In this document: positions 8,708 to 17,312 of the stretch, in pieces
Numbering within the stretch: position 1 is the first letter of the stretch
Layout of the letters: each line of letters starts with the position of its first letter
DNA from: Halanaeroarchaeum sulfurireducens
GTDB lineage: Archaea; Halobacteriota; Halobacteria; Halobacteriales; Halobacteriaceae
Direction: 5' to 3'
Assembly (NCBI RefSeq): GCF_001011115.1
Contig: NZ_CP008874.1
Location: 372,001-436,000, forward strand
DNA length: 64,000 nt
Notes under the pieces: generated by a model
Seen by the model: the letters and a program-made list of their open reading frames with translations, nothing else
Databases searched by the model: none
What the model was told of the DNA's origin: nothing
Made by a program: the position numbers and the translations under genes

Positions 8708-9166
8708 TTATGCCCCGCGCTTGTCGATGACGAGCGTGGGGATGTGGGTGCCGCGGAGCGTGCGTGCGGCCACACTGCCAAGGATGGCCTTCCCGACACC
8801 GGACCGCCCGTGACTACCGATCACGATGAGGTCCATGTCGTTGTCCTCCGCGTACTTGGTGATCATCTTGTGCGGAACGCCACCGCTGTGGTGTTCCGTC
8901 ACGTCGATCCCCTTTGCTTCTGCCTTCTCTCTCACGGCTCCCGTGGCCGCTTCGGCTTCCTCGCGCAACTCGGGCATCTCATCGAATCGGCCCTGCCGGA
9001 TTCGATCGACCTGCTCGGCCCCGAGCGTGAGAGTGATCGACTGGGTGTTTGCGACGTACAGTGCGTGGATTTCGGAACCGCAGTTGTTCGCGAGGGTGAC
9101 CGCGTGGTCGATGGCCGCCTCGGCTGTTTCGCTACCGTCCGTCGGTATGAGGATGCGTTCGTACAT
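8708..9166 (-). CDS. Universal stress protein, single UspA domain
   Basis: A 152-residue UspA-family protein. It begins MYERILIPTDGS and ends with the ATP-binding signature IGSHGRSGVGKAILGSVA, so it should bind ATP. It starts 2 bp before the symporter stop codon region (symporter ends at 9169), so it is co-transcribed with the symporter. Single-domain Usps often sit beside transporters in haloarchaea and may modulate them, which is the likeliest role here (inference). Confidence 0.92.
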   Translation of the reverse strand: MYERILIPTDGSETAEAAIDHAVTLANNCGSEIHALYVANTQSITLTLGAEQVDRIRQGRFDEMPELREEAEAATGAVREKAEAKGIDVTEHHSGGVPHKMITKYAEDNDMDLIVIGSHGRSGVGKAILGSVAARTLRGTHIPTLVIDKRGA

Positions 9167-9168
9167 CG

Positions 9169-10848
9169 TTAGTCATCCGTGGATTCGGACCGCTTTTGCT
9201 CCACCATATCCTCAGCAGTCATGCCTCGTGGCATAGGCTCAGGACTGTGACATTGGCGGACCATCATCTTGGTTTCTTCGGGTGGCTCCTTCGTGACCAT
9301 CGAGACGACGATGGTGATGATGAACACGATCGGCGTGCCGATGATGGCCGAACCGATCGCCGGCATCCACGTCGCCAGCGATTCGATGCCCCAGCCGAAG
9401 ATGCCGAACGCGCCCTCGTTGAACATCGGGATCAACCAGAGGATGATCCCGGACGTCATACCGGCGAGGGCGCCCTGACGGTTCGTGTTCTCCCACCAGA
9501 GACCCAGCATGAACATGGGGAACATCACGATCGCTGCCAGAGCGAAGGCGTAGGACACCAGCGCGGCGATCGGCGCAGTCGGGTCGTACGCGGCCCACAT
9601 CGTCAGCAGCCCGACGAAGATCAGCGCCAGGCGAGCGACGATCATCTGCTCGCGCTGGGTCGCGTCCTTCTTGAGGAGGTTGGTGTAGATGTCGTGGGAG
9701 ATGGCCGAGGAGGCGGAGATGAACAGACCAGCGACGGTCGCGACCGCCGCGGCGATCCCGCCTGCGGCGACGATGCCGACGAACCACGAGGGGAGGCCGG
9801 CGAGCTGTGTCGCCAGCACGACGATCACGTCACCGGCGGCCGAGGACATCCCGGGGTCGCCGTACACGGCACCGATGTTCTTCGAGTAGAGGTCGGTGCC
9901 GAAGGCCGCGAACGCCGGCGCGCTCAGGTAGAGGACCGCGATGAAGCCAAGCCCCCAGACCGTGGACCAGCGGGCTATCCTCTCGTTCTCGACGGTGTAG
10001 AACCGAACCAGCACGTGTGGCAACCCGGCCGTCCCGAAGATCAGCGAGAAGGCCGTCGCGATCCACAGGTAATACGGCGCGTTGACGAATGGTTCGGAGA
10101 ACTCTGCTGAGAGTTCGGTGATCAGTTGCCCGTATTCGAGGTGGGGCAGGATCGTCGAGTACCCCCCCACGAAGCCGGTCACGAAGAGACCGGCGAGGAA
10201 CGCGAAGATCAGGACCCCGTACTGGAAGACCTGATTCTTGGTCGCGCCCAGCATCCCCGAGATGGTCAGGTAGACGATGGTGACGACCATGAAAACGATC
10301 ATCATCGCCTGATAGCCACTCATCCAGGTGATGCCCAGCGGCTGGGTGATGTCGCCGAAGACGTACAGACCGACCAACCCCATCCCGCGGGCCTGGCCGA
10401 TCGAGTACACGAACCCGATCAGGAACGTGGTGATTGCACCCAGGGCGCGGGCCGTATCGGAGTTGTACCGGTCGCCGACGAAGTCCGGCGCGGTGTACTT
10501 CCCGAACCGGCGCATTTGCGCCGCCAGGAAGATCAGCAGGACGAAGTAGCCGGCCGTCCAGCCGACGACGAAGGCGAGGCCGTAGATGCCCGAGAGGGCG
10601 ATCAGCGCGGCCATGCCGAGATAGGACGCGGCCGACATCCAGTTCGCCCCGATCGCGGCACCGTTTTCGATGTTCCCGATGGACCGACCGGCGACCCACA
10701 TGTCGTCCGTGTCGGCCACCGCGAAGATGTACCCGACGATGAGGAACGACGCCATCATCGCGATCACCAGGAAGGCGGGCACGACTTTGAACGAAATGTT
10801 CAGGCCCTCGGGCAGCAGCTCGGATTGCTGGAGGATTAGGCTGTACAT
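9169..10848 (-). CDS. Sodium:solute symporter, probable acetate or monocarboxylate permease
   Basis: A 559-residue SSS-family transporter with about 13 predicted transmembrane helices and the VC_2705/ActP-like features GRSIGN...GANWMSAASYLG near the N-terminus. Its start codon overlaps the stop of the upstream DUF4212 gene by one base (TGATG), the usual arrangement of the large subunit behind its small partner. Proximity to two acetyl-CoA synthetase genes points to acetate or a related short acid as substrate (inference). The C-terminal tail after the last helix is hydrophilic and about 50 residues long. Confidence 0.9.
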   Translation of the reverse strand: MYSLILQQSELLPEGLNISFKVVPAFLVIAMMASFLIVGYIFAVADTDDMWVAGRSIGNIENGAAIGANWMSAASYLGMAALIALSGIYGLAFVVGWTAGYFVLLIFLAAQMRRFGKYTAPDFVGDRYNSDTARALGAITTFLIGFVYSIGQARGMGLVGLYVFGDITQPLGITWMSGYQAMMIVFMVVTIVYLTISGMLGATKNQVFQYGVLIFAFLAGLFVTGFVGGYSTILPHLEYGQLITELSAEFSEPFVNAPYYLWIATAFSLIFGTAGLPHVLVRFYTVENERIARWSTVWGLGFIAVLYLSAPAFAAFGTDLYSKNIGAVYGDPGMSSAAGDVIVVLATQLAGLPSWFVGIVAAGGIAAAVATVAGLFISASSAISHDIYTNLLKKDATQREQMIVARLALIFVGLLTMWAAYDPTAPIAALVSYAFALAAIVMFPMFMLGLWWENTNRQGALAGMTSGIILWLIPMFNEGAFGIFGWGIESLATWMPAIGSAIIGTPIVFIITIVVSMVTKEPPEETKMMVRQCHSPEPMPRGMTAEDMVEQKRSESTDD

Positions 10849-11258
10849 CAGTGCTCACCCCCACCGGGGCCCGACGGCGGTTCGGCGGGCGTGGAGTGAT
10901 CGATGCCGTACTTCTCGTCGAGCTGGTCACGCCGTCTGGCGTACCACGCCGAGAGGCCCAATGCACCGACCACCGCACCGATCGCGATGAGGAAGTAATG
11001 CAGCGGGAAGCCCAGTATCGGCATCGGGGTCGACATCGGCCCGGGAGCGATCTTCGTTGCCGTGACCGGTCCGAAGATTACGATAGCCCAGATGATAAAT
11101 CCCGTCCAGATCAGCCGGAGATTATCCCGCATGAAGGGGGTGCCCGGGCTCAGCATATTGATCTCCGTTTCGAGGTAGTCTACGTCTTGTTCTTCTTGGG
11201 CGGTGTCGGTAGCGTGGCCACCGTCCGTCGCCGTTTCGTGCGTTGGTGAATCGTTCAT
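10848..11258 (-). CDS. DUF4212 small subunit of the sodium/substrate symporter
   Basis: A 136-residue protein with a hydrophilic N-terminus and two membrane helices (about 47-66 and 82-105), matching the DUF4212 small subunits that accompany VC_2705-type symporters. It overlaps the large subunit gene by one base, so the products are probably made together. The conserved core is the WTGFIIWAIVIFGP segment. It lies downstream of acs on the same strand. Confidence 0.88.
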   Translation of the reverse strand: MNDSPTHETATDGGHATDTAQEEQDVDYLETEINMLSPGTPFMRDNLRLIWTGFIIWAIVIFGPVTATKIAPGPMSTPMPILGFPLHYFLIAIGAVVGALGLSAWYARRRDQLDEKYGIDHSTPAEPPSGPGGGEH

Positions 11259-11386: not shown

Positions 11387-13393
11387 CTACTCATGAACCA
11401 TCTGTCGGATATTGTCGGGAACGCTTGGATCCCTGAGTGTCCTCGTGTTCCCGAGCTGTTCGTCGTTCGATATGTCTTCGAGCAACCGACGCATGATCTT
11501 CCCCGACCGGGTCTTCGGGAGTTCGTCGACGAACCACACGTTTGCGGGTCGGGCGAACTTCCCGATTTCCTCCACGATGGACGTGACGATGCGGTCGCGG
11601 ATCTCCTGGCTGGGATCGGCACCGTCGCGGAGTGTCACGTAGATATCCGGAACGGTGCCACGCTCCTCGTCCTCGCGACCGGCGACCGCCGCCTCGGCGA
11701 CGCCGCTCACCTCGGAGACGGCGCTCTCGAGTTCCATCGTTCCCAGGCGGTGGCCCGCGACGTTCATCACGCCGTCGAGGCGCCCGACGATGCGCCAGTA
11801 GCCGTCGCGCTCGTGGACGGCGCCGTCCCCCGCCTTGTAGACCCAGTCCTTGGGGTCGTCACTCGACGTGTCCGAGAAGGCCCGCCAGTACTCGTTGATG
11901 TACCGGTCGTCGTTGCCGTACACCGTCTGGAGCATGCCGGGCCACGGCTTCGTTATGACGAGGTTGCCCGCCTGTCCGCTCGCCGGTTCGATCTCGTTGC
12001 CCTCGTCGTCGAGGATCGCCGGTTCGATCCCCGGCACGGGGTAGCCGGCGCTCCCGGGTTTCATGTCCTTCAGCGCCGGGAGGTTGGTGATGAGGTGGCC
12101 GCCAGTCTCGGTTTGCCACCACGTGTCGACGACGACGGCGTCGCCACCGCCGATGTGCTCGTAGTACCACAGCCAGGCCTCCGGCTGGATCGGTTCGCCG
12201 ACGGTGGTCAGGTGCCTGAAGTCGAAGTCGTACTGCCGGGGGATATCTTCGCCCCACTTCATGAACATCCGCACGGCGGTCGGCGACGTGTGGAAGATGT
12301 CGACGTCGTACTTCTCTGCGATCTCCCAGGTACGTCCCTTGTGTGGGAAGTCGGGGGCGCCCTCGTACATCACTGTCGTGGTCCCGAGAGACAGGGGACC
12401 GTAGACGATGTAGGAGTGGCCCGTGATCCACCCGATGTCTGCGGAACACCAGTAGGTGTCGGAGGGTTCGATGTCGAGGACGTACTTCGACGTCGCCGTG
12501 ACGTGAGCCAGGTACCCACCCGTTCGGTGCTGGGCACCCTTCGGTTGCCCCGTCGTCCCGGAGGTATACATGAGGAACAGCGTGTCCTCGGCGTCGCGGG
12601 AGACCGGATCGACCTCCGCGCCGCGTTTGTCCTCGAGCACGTCGTCGACGAGCACGTAGGGGTCGTCGCTGCCGATGGAGACGTCTTCGTGGAGATCGTC
12701 GCCACGCGTGAACAGCAGGACGGTGTCCGGTGGCGAGTCGGCGATTTCGAGTGCCTTGTCGGCCTTTTCCTTGTGGTTGAGGAACTCGCCACGGCGGTAG
12801 TAGCCGTCGATGGTGACAGCGACGTCCGAGCCGGCGTCGTCGATGCGATCCGCGAACGCCTGCGCGGAGAACCCACCGAACACTTCGGAGTGAGGCGCCC
12901 CGATGCGGGCCGCTGCGAGCATGGACACCGGCAGCGCGGGCACCATGGGCAGGTGCATCGTGACGATGTCGTCTTCCAGGACACCGACTTCCCGGAAGAC
13001 GGCCGCCATCTCGTTGACTCGACGATACAGGTCCTGGTAGGCGATACGCTCGGTTTTTCCGTGTTCTCCCTCCCAGAGGATGGCCGTCTGATCCTTTCGC
13101 TCCGGGAGGTGGCGATCGACCGCGTTGTACGATGCGTTGAGTGTCCCACCCGGGAACCACTCGAAAAACGGCGGATTGGAGTCGTCGAGGACCCTGTCCC
13201 ACCGCTCTTCCCAGTCCAGCAGCTCTGCGAACTCCTCGAAGGCGTCCGGCCACTCCTCGTCGAAACGATCGTATATCGCGGAGTCGGTGGCGTTCGCCTG
13301 CCCCACGAACTCCGTCGGGGGGCGCAAGTATTCTTGTTCTGTCAGACGGGATTCGATGGCCCCGCCCGCATCAGTACTGTCATCATCAGCCAT
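11387..13393 (-). CDS. acs: Acetate-CoA ligase (AMP-forming)
   Basis: Acetyl-CoA synthetase of 668 residues, converting acetate, ATP and CoA to acetyl-CoA and AMP. All core ANL motifs are intact: the P-loop YTSGTTGQPKG, the acetate-pocket WWQTETGG, the hinge region GRLDGVMNVAGHRLG, and the catalytic lysine PKTRSGK (K632), which is also the usual acetylation site. It is the upstream gene of the symporter pair. A TATA-like TTTAAGAGG lies about 35 bp upstream of the start. With the symporter it forms an acetate uptake and activation module. Confidence 0.96.
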   Translation of the reverse strand: MADDDSTDAGGAIESRLTEQEYLRPPTEFVGQANATDSAIYDRFDEEWPDAFEEFAELLDWEERWDRVLDDSNPPFFEWFPGGTLNASYNAVDRHLPERKDQTAILWEGEHGKTERIAYQDLYRRVNEMAAVFREVGVLEDDIVTMHLPMVPALPVSMLAAARIGAPHSEVFGGFSAQAFADRIDDAGSDVAVTIDGYYRRGEFLNHKEKADKALEIADSPPDTVLLFTRGDDLHEDVSIGSDDPYVLVDDVLEDKRGAEVDPVSRDAEDTLFLMYTSGTTGQPKGAQHRTGGYLAHVTATSKYVLDIEPSDTYWCSADIGWITGHSYIVYGPLSLGTTTVMYEGAPDFPHKGRTWEIAEKYDVDIFHTSPTAVRMFMKWGEDIPRQYDFDFRHLTTVGEPIQPEAWLWYYEHIGGGDAVVVDTWWQTETGGHLITNLPALKDMKPGSAGYPVPGIEPAILDDEGNEIEPASGQAGNLVITKPWPGMLQTVYGNDDRYINEYWRAFSDTSSDDPKDWVYKAGDGAVHERDGYWRIVGRLDGVMNVAGHRLGTMELESAVSEVSGVAEAAVAGREDEERGTVPDIYVTLRDGADPSQEIRDRIVTSIVEEIGKFARPANVWFVDELPKTRSGKIMRRLLEDISNDEQLGNTRTLRDPSVPDNIRQMVHE

Positions 13394-13514
13394 GTTGGCT
13401 ATGCAACTACGTAGGACAAAAACCTCTTAAACGTGGTCGCTAACTATCCCAAGCCGATCGGAGAGGGCCCAGGCGGGCGAAAATTCGCCCGTTGTGGCGA
13501 TCCGACGCCGACAA

Positions 13515-15239
13515 TCAGGACGATCGCTGGCCCAGCAGTTCTTCGAGAAGCTTTCGCTGGGCCTTTCGAAGGTGGTTGTGCAGCGTGGGGGACGAAATGT
13601 CTAGGGTGTCGGCCAGTTCCTCCGCCGTCGTCTCCCGGGGCCAGTCGAAATACCCCGCCTGATAGGCCGAGCGAAGCGCAGATAGCTGCTTGTCGGTGAG
13701 TTCACCCTCGACCCGATGCTGGAGCGGCTCGGCCGTACTGACGGGGTGGGCGACCTCGCGTTTGGCCACGAACTCCGTATCCGGGAACGCCGCCGTCACA
13801 CCGCGCACGACGCCCCGAACGTCGACGTCGATCGGAAATTCCGCCGTGACGGTTCCCCCACGCCCGTCGACGACGTACTCGGTCACGTGGCCCCCGAACT
13901 CGGTTAGCGAGGCCGCCATCGATCCCCCGGAGGCGACCAGCTCGACCACCGCATTCTCGCCCCCGCTGCGGATCAGCCGTGCACGCTCGATTCCCTCGGC
14001 CGCCGAGGCGCGATCGACGACGGTCTCGGGGGCCGTGCCCGTCACCCGAACGTACAGCGCCAGCGAGCGCTCGGAGATGGGTGCCTGTCCCTCGAGTGAG
14101 AACGAGCACCCACACTCTCGGGCGGTTTCGACCAGAAACGACCCCTCGTCCGTGGTCCGGAATTCGAGTTCCATCACCGTGTCGGCCCGGAGCAGTCGGC
14201 GGCGAGTGACGGCGGCGACGGCCTGCCCGATGCGTCGACCGAAGTCGGCCAGGATGGATCGCTCCCGGTCGCCGATGTCCTCGGACGAGCTCGTCGCCAC
14301 CGAGAGGGTTCCGTATGACGTATCCCCGTATCCGACCGGGACCTCGGCAACGACGTGGTGGGCGGTCAGCCCGGGGACGGTCTCGTGGTCACGGACGGAG
14401 CCGACACGCACCGCAGCGTCGTTTCCGTCGACAGCCCCGGGACCGACAACCGACAGCGAACCGGCGTCGATTTCGTCCGCGGAACGTGCGACGCCCGCGG
14501 TCGCTCTGACGGCCGATTCCTGCCCCTCGGGAGTTACTCCGAGCAACCACGCGCCGTCGTATCCGGCGTCGACCAGCGCCTCGCACGCCGCCCCCTCGAC
14601 CTCCTCTCGGGAGGTGGCCGTTTCGATCAACGAACTCGCAGACAGGATGGCGTCGAGCGCCGTCTCGAAGCGAGCCGGCGGACCGCTTCGCTCCGCCGGA
14701 TCGGAGGACGAGCCGTTCGCGAACGCCCGGACGATGTCCTCCTCGTCGGGCTGTTCCAGAGTCTCGATGACGGTATCGAGACTCGACCAGCCACCGACGG
14801 ACCGCACGACGCGTGGATCCACGCCGTCCTCGAGTTGTTGGCGGGCGAACGTGCGACGAAGCGAGCGCGAGGAAACCGACACGCCGGTCACACGGTCGCC
14901 CACCTCGGCGACGAGCATCTGGATGCGCCGGGACGATACCTCCAGAATCGGGTCGTCGACACCTCGACCGCGCTCGCGGGCGAACTTTTCGACGGCGTCC
15001 CAGACGTCCCGGGGGACGTACACGAGTCGTTCCCCGCCCGACCCATCGACGGCGAGCAGGTGGTGGACGTCACCGTCGCGCGCGTATTCGCGAGCGTCTG
15101 AGAGACGAATACTGGCCATTTCCGCCGGCCGCAGACCGACCTCCCCGGCGAGTCGGATTGCCAGCTCCTCGCGGTAGGTTCGCGTGGCCTCGCGAACCCG
15201 CCGATAGTCGCTGTCGTCCAGTGCGGATGGATCAGTCAT
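13515..15239 (-). CDS. Regulator with integrase-like, GAF, Bat and HTH_10 domains
   Basis: A 574-residue transcription regulator. Residues about 20-180 look like a tyrosine-recombinase catalytic fold (VGLRPAEMASIRLSD, then SRSLRRTFARQQLEDG and GGWSSLDTVIETLE), but the HxLR box lacks its His and no nucleophilic Tyr follows, so it is probably a dead integrase used for DNA or protein contacts. A GAF domain (about 215-365), a bacterio-opsin activator (Bat) domain (about 370-515) and an HTH_10 helix-turn-helix (about 520-570) follow. It sits between two acetyl-CoA synthetase genes and is a good candidate for their regulator (inference). Confidence 0.88.
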   Translation of the reverse strand: MTDPSALDDSDYRRVREATRTYREELAIRLAGEVGLRPAEMASIRLSDAREYARDGDVHHLLAVDGSGGERLVYVPRDVWDAVEKFARERGRGVDDPILEVSSRRIQMLVAEVGDRVTGVSVSSRSLRRTFARQQLEDGVDPRVVRSVGGWSSLDTVIETLEQPDEEDIVRAFANGSSSDPAERSGPPARFETALDAILSASSLIETATSREEVEGAACEALVDAGYDGAWLLGVTPEGQESAVRATAGVARSADEIDAGSLSVVGPGAVDGNDAAVRVGSVRDHETVPGLTAHHVVAEVPVGYGDTSYGTLSVATSSSEDIGDRERSILADFGRRIGQAVAAVTRRRLLRADTVMELEFRTTDEGSFLVETARECGCSFSLEGQAPISERSLALYVRVTGTAPETVVDRASAAEGIERARLIRSGGENAVVELVASGGSMAASLTEFGGHVTEYVVDGRGGTVTAEFPIDVDVRGVVRGVTAAFPDTEFVAKREVAHPVSTAEPLQHRVEGELTDKQLSALRSAYQAGYFDWPRETTAEELADTLDISSPTLHNHLRKAQRKLLEELLGQRSS

Positions 15240-15259
15240 TTCGTGAAATCTGGCCTGCC

Positions 15260-15353
15260 GTAATTCGTTAAACGGTTCATAGACACTTCAAACCTCCACT
15301 TCGTTCAGTCTTCGTCGCAAATAGCCGACATTATTACGTTTTATATTTCGTAA
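15260..15353 (-). promoter_or_regulatory. Promoter and palindrome upstream of the Bat-type regulator
   Basis: A TATA-like TTTAACGAATTA on the minus strand (15260-15272) is about 27 bp before the ATG at 15239, which fits a leaderless transcript. Further upstream is an inverted repeat, ttacg (15334-15338) and cgtaa (15349-15353), around an all-AT core. The AT-rich gap lies between the second acs gene and the regulator, so the palindrome could be an autoregulatory site or belong to the end of acs2. Confidence 0.4.
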
Positions 15354-15371
15354 ATCTGAATTCAACGAAAA

Positions 15372-17312
15372 TCACTCGCCGTGGAGGACCGACTTGAGTT
15401 CGCCCACGACCTCGGGGTTGCGAAGGGCGCTCGTATCGCCGAGGGCGTCCCCGTCGGTGATGTTCGAGAGCATCCGCCGCATGATCTTCCCCGACCTGGT
15501 CTTCGGCAGGTCGGTGGTGAAGACCACGGTCGCCGGAACCGGCGACGTGCCGACGGCGGCTTCGAGCGCCTGCGTGATTCGCTCCCGGAGTTCGTCGGTT
15601 TCCTGGCCGGCAGGTGTCACGAACGCGTACAGCGAGGGGCCGGCCGGCCCGTCCGCCGAGACGACCGCCGCCTCGGCGACGCCATCGACGGACATGGCCG
15701 CACTCTCGATTTCGGCCGTGCCGAGGCGGCGACCCCGAACGATGACGACGTCGTCGACGCGCCCCAATACGGTAACGTAGCCGTCCTCGTCGACGGTGGC
15801 TCGATCGCCCGTGACGTAGGCCCAGCCGTCCACGTCCACGAGGTAGGAGCTGGGATCGGGGGCCCACCCCGAGCCGTTGGCCAGAGACGTCGGCATGCCG
15901 GGCCAGGGTCGATCGACGATCAGGAATCCCCGCTCGCCAGGTTCGACGGGGTCCCCCGACCGGTCCACGACCGAGACGCTGATGCCGGGGAGGGGCGGCC
16001 CGGCGGCACCGGGTTTCATTTCGTCGACGCCGGGGAGCGTCGCCACCATCATGCCGCCCGTCTCGGTCTGCCACCACGTGTCGACGATCGGCGCGTCACC
16101 GCCGCCGAGGGTCGAGCGGTACCACTCCCATCCGCTGGGACTGATGCGCTCGCCGACGGTGCCCAAAAGACGCAACGACGAGAGGTCGAAGCGATCCGGG
16201 ACCGTCACATCTCGCTTTCGGAAGGAGCTGATCGCCGTCGGCGCCGTGTAGAAGACGTCCACCGCGTTGCGTTCGAGGAGTTCCCAGAGACGGTCGCGTT
16301 CGTTGTACTCTGGAGTGCCCTCGTACAGGAGCGTCGTCGCCCCCAGGAGGAGCGGCCCGTAGACGCCGTACGAGTGACCCGTGATCCACCCGATGTCTGC
16401 GGAACTCCAGAGCGTATCTTCGGGTTCGATGTCGAGGACGGCGTGTGTGGTCCAGGCCACGTGGGCCAGGTACCCGCCGGTCGTGTGCCGGACCTCCTTC
16501 GGGTTGCCGGTCGTCCCGGAGGTGTGAAGGACGAAGAGTTCGTCACCGGATGCGCGCGCCACCGGTTCGACGGTCTCCCCGCCGTGGTCGTCCACGAGGT
16601 CCGCGTAGTGATACTCCCCCTCGCCCAGAGAGACGTCGAACCCCATCCGATCCACGACGACGGTGTGAACGTCGTGGTCGAGAGCGAGCCTGGCGTTATC
16701 GGCCCGGTTCTTCTGGTCGACGGCCTCTCCCTGGCGCAGGTACCCGTCACAGGTGAGCAGGTACGACGATTCCGTCGACTCCATTCGCATCGCGAGCGCG
16801 TCGGGCGAAAAGCCGGCGAAGACCACGTTGTGCGGGGCACCGAGTCGGGCGGCCGCGAGCATCGCGATGGTCAGTTCCGGCACCATCGGCAGGTACAGCG
16901 TCACGACGTCGTCCTCCCCGACCCCAAGCTCCGAGAGTGCGGACGCGAGCGCGTTTACCTCGTGGTAGAGGTCCTGGTACGTGAGCGTCCGCGTCTCGCC
17001 CAGCCGACCGGCCCACTTGATGGCGACGCGATTTTTCCGACCCGATTCGACGTACCGGTCGATGGCGTTGTAGGCGGCGTTGAGTTCCCCGCCGGGGAAC
17101 CAGGTGAGCGGCGGTTCCGGATTCGAGAGGACCGCATCGTAATCGGTCGACCACGACAAGAGGTCCGCAGCCGTCGCCCACGCCTCGGCCCCCTGCTCGT
17201 CCCACGCCTCCCGAAGGCCCTCGTGGACGTTCGCCTGCTCGACGAAGGCAGCTGGCGGGCGATACGTTCCCACGTGGTCGCCCGGCGCGTCGTCTGGGTC
17301 GCCTGTTGCCAT
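15372..17312 (-). CDS. Second acetyl-CoA synthetase-like protein, divergent motifs
   Basis: An AMP-forming acyl-CoA synthetase of 646 residues, clearly an Acs paralogue: HTSGTTGNPK loop, ADIGWITGHSYG, WWQTETGG and the catalytic lysine PKTRSGK (K609) are present. Two normally invariant positions differ: the P-loop PKG is PKE, and the hinge/CoA segment reads IVRGRRLG where Acs usually has NVSGHRLG. The acetate-selecting Trp of WWQTETG is kept. It may therefore have altered kinetics or acyl preference rather than being inactive. It is transcribed towards the Bat-type regulator, 132 bp away. Confidence 0.9.
   Translation of the reverse strand: MATGDPDDAPGDHVGTYRPPAAFVEQANVHEGLREAWDEQGAEAWATAADLLSWSTDYDAVLSNPEPPLTWFPGGELNAAYNAIDRYVESGRKNRVAIKWAGRLGETRTLTYQDLYHEVNALASALSELGVGEDDVVTLYLPMVPELTIAMLAAARLGAPHNVVFAGFSPDALAMRMESTESSYLLTCDGYLRQGEAVDQKNRADNARLALDHDVHTVVVDRMGFDVSLGEGEYHYADLVDDHGGETVEPVARASGDELFVLHTSGTTGNPKEVRHTTGGYLAHVAWTTHAVLDIEPEDTLWSSADIGWITGHSYGVYGPLLLGATTLLYEGTPEYNERDRLWELLERNAVDVFYTAPTAISSFRKRDVTVPDRFDLSSLRLLGTVGERISPSGWEWYRSTLGGGDAPIVDTWWQTETGGMMVATLPGVDEMKPGAAGPPLPGISVSVVDRSGDPVEPGERGFLIVDRPWPGMPTSLANGSGWAPDPSSYLVDVDGWAYVTGDRATVDEDGYVTVLGRVDDVVIVRGRRLGTAEIESAAMSVDGVAEAAVVSADGPAGPSLYAFVTPAGQETDELRERITQALEAAVGTSPVPATVVFTTDLPKTRSGKIMRRMLSNITDGDALGDTSALRNPEVVGELKSVLHGE

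Follow-up and report, generated by a model that had tools for sequence, protein, structure and literature searches.

Recombinases and Bat-type regulators of haloarchaea

Archaeal tyrosine recombinases have been sorted into 17 families, one of which, fam30-04, combines Phage_integrase, BAT and HTH_10 domains, sometimes with GAF_2, and is defined as a SiLiX cluster at 30% identity over 60% of the length (Badel et al. 2021, PMC8371274). Bat-type HTH_10 proteins, among them Bat and DmsR, are haloarchaeal activators whose upstream element lies close to the TATA box (PMC1447603, PMC3184054). The present work concerns a gene of Halanaeroarchaeum sulfurireducens, which reduces sulfur and oxidises acetate (PMC4866403), located at 13515..15239 on the minus strand of a 64,000-nucleotide stretch of contig NZ_CP008874.1 (positions 372,001 to 436,000), which is referred to here as the window. 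Its 574-residue product, called the regulator in what follows, has a dead tyrosine-recombinase domain followed by GAF, BAT and HTH_10 domains. It is probable, in our judgement, that this protein locally regulates transcription of the cassette for acetate uptake and activation in haloarchaea; it would activate the operon and repress its own gene by bridging two dyads, with the recombinase-like domain taking part in binding, bridging or both.

The regulator has the same architecture as fam30-04, with Phage_integrase, BAT and HTH_10 in one protein, and is matched to it on that ground; the combination of domains has thus been known since 2021. The accessible part of that paper counts the family among the recombinases and gives it no function (PMC8371274), and we found in it nothing on loss of catalysis, affinity to plasmid-borne mini-recombinases, acetate synteny or operators. 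In the openly accessible literature, no earlier description of these four features was found either. The regulator has GAF, BAT and C-terminal HTH_10 domains in common with the Bat-type proteins, whereas Bat contains PAS and no recombinase domain. With the archaeal XerA (4a8e, 5hxy) and XerC/D it has the catalytic-domain fold in common, but those enzymes are active, possess a core-binding domain and are far more distant in sequence than the mini-recombinases discussed below. An independent precedent is provided by the animal Crypton-derived DUF3504 proteins, in which a recombinase domain without catalytic residues is found in transcription regulators; they are eukaryotic and of separate origin, they have lost the second Arg that is invariant in the haloarchaeal regulators, and no dyads are described for them in the accessible text (PMC3212892).

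A recombinase fold without its catalytic residues

The preliminary description of this gene, made from its sequence alone, proposed that the N-terminus resembles the catalytic fold of a tyrosine recombinase, and structure prediction has borne this out. The AlphaFold model of the first 190 residues, built from 63 family sequences, reaches a pLDDT of 91.2 and a pTM of 0.83, and its top Foldseek matches are XerA (5hxy, E 1.4e-8), Cre and XerH; conversely, a profile of the regulator family retrieves the Pyrococcus XerA (4a8e) with E 3e-18. The Pfam model Phage_integrase matches residues 12-156 (E 1e-7, passing the curated cut-off), and the closest NCBIfam model is archaeal XerA (residues 3-155, E 2e-11), with a score far under its cut-off. 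By these models, residues 9-176 (14712..15215, minus strand) have the tyrosine-recombinase catalytic fold. The protein begins directly at this domain, and the Pfam scan gave no Phage_int_SAM match, that is, no N-terminal core-binding (SAM-like) domain.

The proposed fusion to GAF, Bat and HTH_10 domains is likewise found, through Pfam matches and through the GAF fold recognised by Foldseek. The GAF-fold domain comprises residues 189-351 (14187..14675, minus strand), with a weak GAF_3 match under the Pfam cut-off at residues 228-341 and a Foldseek match of the full-length model (pLDDT 83.6) to the GAF structure 3ci6. It is followed by the BAT domain at residues 352-506 (13722..14186, minus strand; PF15915, E 2e-40) and by the DNA-binding HTH_10 domain at residues 513-565 (13545..13703, minus strand; PF04967, E 4e-23). 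BAT followed by HTH_10, with a GAF sensor fold ahead of BAT, is the arrangement of a Bat/HTH_10 regulator. Since the same architecture and neighbours recur in many haloarchaeal genera, the fusion is not a product of chance. Some family members of about 740-840 residues, in Natronomonas, Halosimplex, Natrinema and Natrialba, have one or more PAS domains inserted between the recombinase-like and GAF domains, in the same synteny. One locus (G189:C15:49477-51188) appears to have the protein in two separate frames, the recombinase-like domain in one and GAF-BAT-HTH in the other, as a result of either a frameshift or a natural split.

Active tyrosine recombinases have the pentad Arg-Lys-His-Arg-His/Trp and a Tyr nucleophile, a set that the window protein does not possess. 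It keeps R37 (the first Arg, R-I), R128 (the second, R-II) and Trp151 at the His/Trp position; the Lys of the β-hairpin is absent, and the HxLR box reads RSLR, Arg125 standing in place of the His, as the preliminary description had noticed. The same description held the nucleophilic Tyr to be missing, which is correct for this protein, where Thr160 occupies the position, but does not extend to the family. Among 130 distinct regulator sequences, Tyr is present in 68, Leu in 22, Phe in 18 and His in 7, and Thr occurs in the window protein only; loss of Tyr as the defining mark of the family was therefore rejected. What the family has lost is the hairpin-region Lys, seen in 3/130, and the HxLR His, seen in 4/130. 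In a thinned comparison, both residues are present in all 32 mini-recombinase and Xer sequences, versus 3/67 and 4/67 of the regulators, respectively. Recombination by the regulator family is therefore very unlikely.

It could still be argued that the domain recombines or nicks DNA, and that the dyads described below are recombination sites at which inversion or excision switches the regulator. This would suit the four members that retain R-H-R-W-Y, the Tyr kept by about half of the family and the paired sites that flank the promoter. We regard it as very improbable, given the near absence of Lys and His across the family, the replacement of R-I in 22/130 sequences (108/130 keep Arg), and the window protein, which is without Lys, His and Tyr. 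The promoter layout is also constant in the loci examined, in which inverted copies were not specifically searched for.

Other positions have been kept or newly fixed. R128 is Arg in all 130 sequences, R104 and R105 are likewise invariant, and Trp is found at the His/Trp position in 119/130. In the thinned set, the regulators share R105 (67/67) and M108 (66/67), both of them fixed residues that the mini-recombinases lack and that have thus been gained. R-II and the R104/R105 region face the DNA side in tyrosine recombinases, and the invariance of R104, R105 and R128 thus argues for DNA contact by the recombinase-like domain. Read in this way, the alignment indicates that catalysis is lost in the regulator domain, while arginines of the DNA-contact type are retained and new invariant residues are added. 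Catalytic residues that are both lost and variable could also mean that the domain is a non-functional relic on its way out; this is scarcely credible for a domain that well over 100 different sequences retain whole and in frame, and that has invariant residues that the mini-recombinases do not share.

Relationship to plasmid-borne mini-recombinases

Haloarchaea also encode stand-alone "mini" recombinases of about 200 residues, which, like the regulator, consist of the catalytic domain alone, without a core-binding domain. The set closest to the regulator domain is largely plasmid-borne, annotated as "site-specific integrase" and intact in its full catalytic set; VNG_RS12805 of pNRC100 and RR_RS00200 of Haloarcula pNG200 are examples. 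Hidden Markov model similarity to the regulator domain is 1e-47 to 1e-62 for these plasmid minis, 1e-20 to 1e-34 for a second mini group and 1e-7 to 1e-15 for haloarchaeal Xer-like proteins. The maximum-likelihood tree unites regulators and minis against Xer (100/99) and also groups the minis among themselves (100/99), with the branching order at the base not settled. The regulators that keep the His are found in the basal part of the tree, and the window protein sits on a long branch in a derived clade of 46 sequences (97/96).

By both profile and tree, the closest relatives of the regulator N-domain are the plasmid mini-recombinases and not XerC/D, to which the preliminary description had suggested aligning it; the recombinase fold stood, and the nearest relative has changed. 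It is proposed that the N-domain descends from a plasmid-borne mini tyrosine recombinase, or has a common ancestor with it. The direction from mini to regulator is suggested by the intact catalytic residues of the minis, and the tree is compatible with a single fusion event. Beyond ancestry the two have little in common: the minis stand alone, keep Arg-Lys-His-Arg-Trp-Tyr and have repeats of their own, whereas the regulator is fused and catalytically degraded. Close upstream of plasmid mini-recombinase genes, at five loci, lies a conserved inverted repeat, ACGACTTG..CAAGTCGTAACAG (ACGACTT..AAGTCGT), perhaps the minis' own recombination (dif-like) site.

Paired dyads in front of the regulator gene

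Two dyads precede the regulator gene of the window, both on the minus strand, with start codons here set by rule. The first, D1 (15239..15263, TTACGGCAGGCCAGATTTCACGAAA), lies over the start codon and reads TTACG-N15-CGAAA, a 9/10 match to TTTCG..CGAAA; the second, D2 (15346..15370, TTTCGTTGAATTCAGATTTACGAAA), is a perfect TTTCG-N15-CGAAA just past the stop codon of the upstream gene acs2. Their centres are 107 bp apart. With two 5-bp arms and an overall length of 25-26 bp, they are near dif-type sites in size. The perfect form occurs at three places in the window's genome, and the two beyond D2 (positions 548475-548499 and 563475-563499) could be chance occurrences or other targets.

Relatives share this layout. 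A dyad TTTCG-N16-CGAAA abuts the regulator start codon, with a core spacing of 16 in 70/101 non-redundant promoters and of 15 in 10/101; shuffled promoters give about 0.1 dyad per spacing. When loci are thinned to less than 60% domain identity, at least one dyad is present in 45 and at least two in 40 of the 46 divergent loci that are left, compared with 1.6% and 0.1% of shuffles; even so, these loci are kin by descent and the counts are not independent. The long PAS-containing members mostly carry the pair too. At the acs1, acs2, DUF4212, symporter and usp genes around the regulator, dyads were found in 0-1 of about 40 each and pairs in none, and no exact dyad was found near the mini-recombinase genes in 14 loci. 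The dyad centres are most often 96 or 107 bp apart, and between 60 and 190 bp the spacing has a period of 10.8 bp (R 0.60); in 5000 draws from a smooth distribution, this degree of phasing was never reached. This phasing suggests that the two dyads are bridged.

The protein domain that would contact the dyads has two candidates. HTH_10 may bind both dyads as well as the acs1 element described below, with the recombinase-like domain acting off the DNA as a scaffold for dimerisation or signalling. Bat-type regulators are known to bind DNA through their HTH_10 end (PMC1447603), dyad symmetry by itself needs just a dimer, and the dyad arms differ from the inverted repeats beside the mini-recombinase genes. 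We nonetheless hold this to be somewhat unlikely: the invariant, DNA-facing arginines R104, R105 and R128 of the recombinase-like domain speak for contact by it, and elsewhere in the window's genome HTH_10 genes are not preceded by a near-perfect TTTCG..CGAAA pair.

An upstream element in the acs1 promoter

The promoter of the downstream gene acs1 carries a different site. In 66/83 non-redundant acs1 promoters, TTnnnATARTTAG is found at about -57, with a TATA-like box always the same distance behind it. A search of 292 genomes for element and box together gave 48 matches, never two in one genome; the reversed pattern, used as a control, gave about eight. In 41 of the 48, as we read the coordinates, the match lies directly downstream of a regulator gene. 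In the window, the element and its TATA-like box (TTGGGATAGTTAGC..GTTTAA, 13427..13452, minus strand) are the sole genome match of a closely related pattern. The acs1 element is not equated with the bop upstream activating sequence. Motif matrices were derived from the same sequences in which they were counted; for the dyad, shuffled sequence and other genes served as checks, and the scan of whole genomes depends little on those sequences.

A regulator encoded elsewhere might bind the dyads, the acs1 element or both, leaving the fused protein to answer another signal. The 13 HTH_10 matches in the window's genome speak for it. Such an outside regulator appears improbable, since the dyad pair tracks the regulator gene in 40/46 divergent loci, the long PAS form included, and is absent at neighbouring genes, and since 41 of the 48 acs1-element matches adjoin the regulator.

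Among relatives, 57 of 93 acs2 promoters have GCGAACGTTTATTC at about -41; strong as this motif is, it is probably only the transcription factor B recognition element and TATA box. The window has no good match to it before acs2, and it was therefore left unused. A scan for bacterial promoters and terminators gave nothing, as expected in an archaeon.

The acetate cassette

The gene lies between two acs genes, as had been reported for it, and both neighbours encode acetate--CoA ligases by NCBIfam and synteny: acs2 (acs8-type, 15372..17312) upstream and acs1 (acs7-type, 11387..13393), which has its own promoter element, downstream. The cassette continues, all on the minus strand, with a DUF4212 symporter small subunit (10848..11258, TIGR03647), a VC_2705-family symporter for Na+ and solute of the acetate type, ActP (9169..10848, TIGR03648), and, as its final gene, a universal stress protein, usp (8708..9166), assigned by synteny with the Haloferax usp and without an NCBIfam match.

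The control of acetate genes that the preliminary description had drawn from adjacency now has wider grounds. The order acs2, regulator, acs1, DUF4212, symporter, usp is widespread among haloarchaea and is kept in most of 140 loci, including nearly all of 80 named ones (Haloferax, Haloarcula, Halorubrum, Natrinema, Halobacterium and others). Among 60 whole-genome loci, 59 have an acs2 homologue before the regulator, 56 an acs homologue after it, and about 50 the DUF4212 and symporter genes downstream, several of the remainder being contig ends. Haladaptatus pallidirubidus has two apparently identical whole cassettes on one chromosome. In the orthologous operon of H. volcanii, a 4.6-kb transcript, detected only on acetate, spans acs7 (HVO_A0156), HVO_A0155, ssf (the acetate transporter ActP) and uspA28, and acs8 is HVO_A0158 (PMC7746861). 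An annotated Haloferax lucentense plasmid conserves the cassette, its regulator being labelled only as a "bacterio-opsin activator domain-containing protein". From this synteny and from its locus number between acs7 and acs8, we infer that HVO_A0157 is the H. volcanii counterpart of the regulator; the literature searched gave nothing on HVO_A0157 and no named regulator of the acs7-usp operon.

Proposed mechanism of regulation

The model proposes that the regulator probably switches acetate-use genes on. Its GAF domain would sense a signal that reflects acetate or acetyl-CoA status, and the protein would activate acs1, DUF4212, symporter and usp through the acs1 element with its constant spacing to the TATA box, in all likelihood by means of HTH_10, as in Bat. 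It would repress its own gene on the two TTTCG-N15/16-CGAAA dyads, one over the start and the other some 96-107 bp further upstream, facing the same side of the helix; the two may be bridged into a loop. A site between TATA and start is typical of archaeal repression, and self-repression through D1 is suggested because D1 would cover this region. Tetramers of recombinases bring two dyad sites together, which makes the recombinase-like domain a natural candidate for bridging and the best one for dyad binding, bridging or both; the assignment of domains to sites is our inference. One step further, and put forward tentatively as a possibility that we somewhat doubt, a domesticated dead plasmid recombinase may pair the two phased operators through its old synaptic (tetramer) interface, which would make it a ligand-controlled DNA-looping switch for acetate metabolism.

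Several points weigh against this proposal. The acs1 promoter is without a dyad, so two different sites have to be explained, and the dyads may belong to HTH_10 instead of the recombinase-like domain. The repeats beside the mini-recombinase genes are unlike the dyads in their arms, and a conserved DNA specificity is therefore not claimed. Downstream genes differ in some loci, and H. volcanii acs8, the acs2 counterpart by number, has been judged dispensable for growth on acetate (PMC7746861). Finally, a literature search found no binding, expression or looping data for the regulator or its orthologues.

Significance

New here are the acs1 upstream element, with its constant distance to the TATA box, and the paired, helically phased dyads before the regulator gene. 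The analysis puts forward a candidate regulator, and the sites it may bind, for the haloarchaeal operon that acetate induces, a proposal that is testable in Haloferax volcanii. For the family, the sequences point clearly to an archaeal transcription regulator that arose from a mobile-element recombinase; the active form is still present on plasmids for comparison, and synapsis may have been reused for promoter looping.
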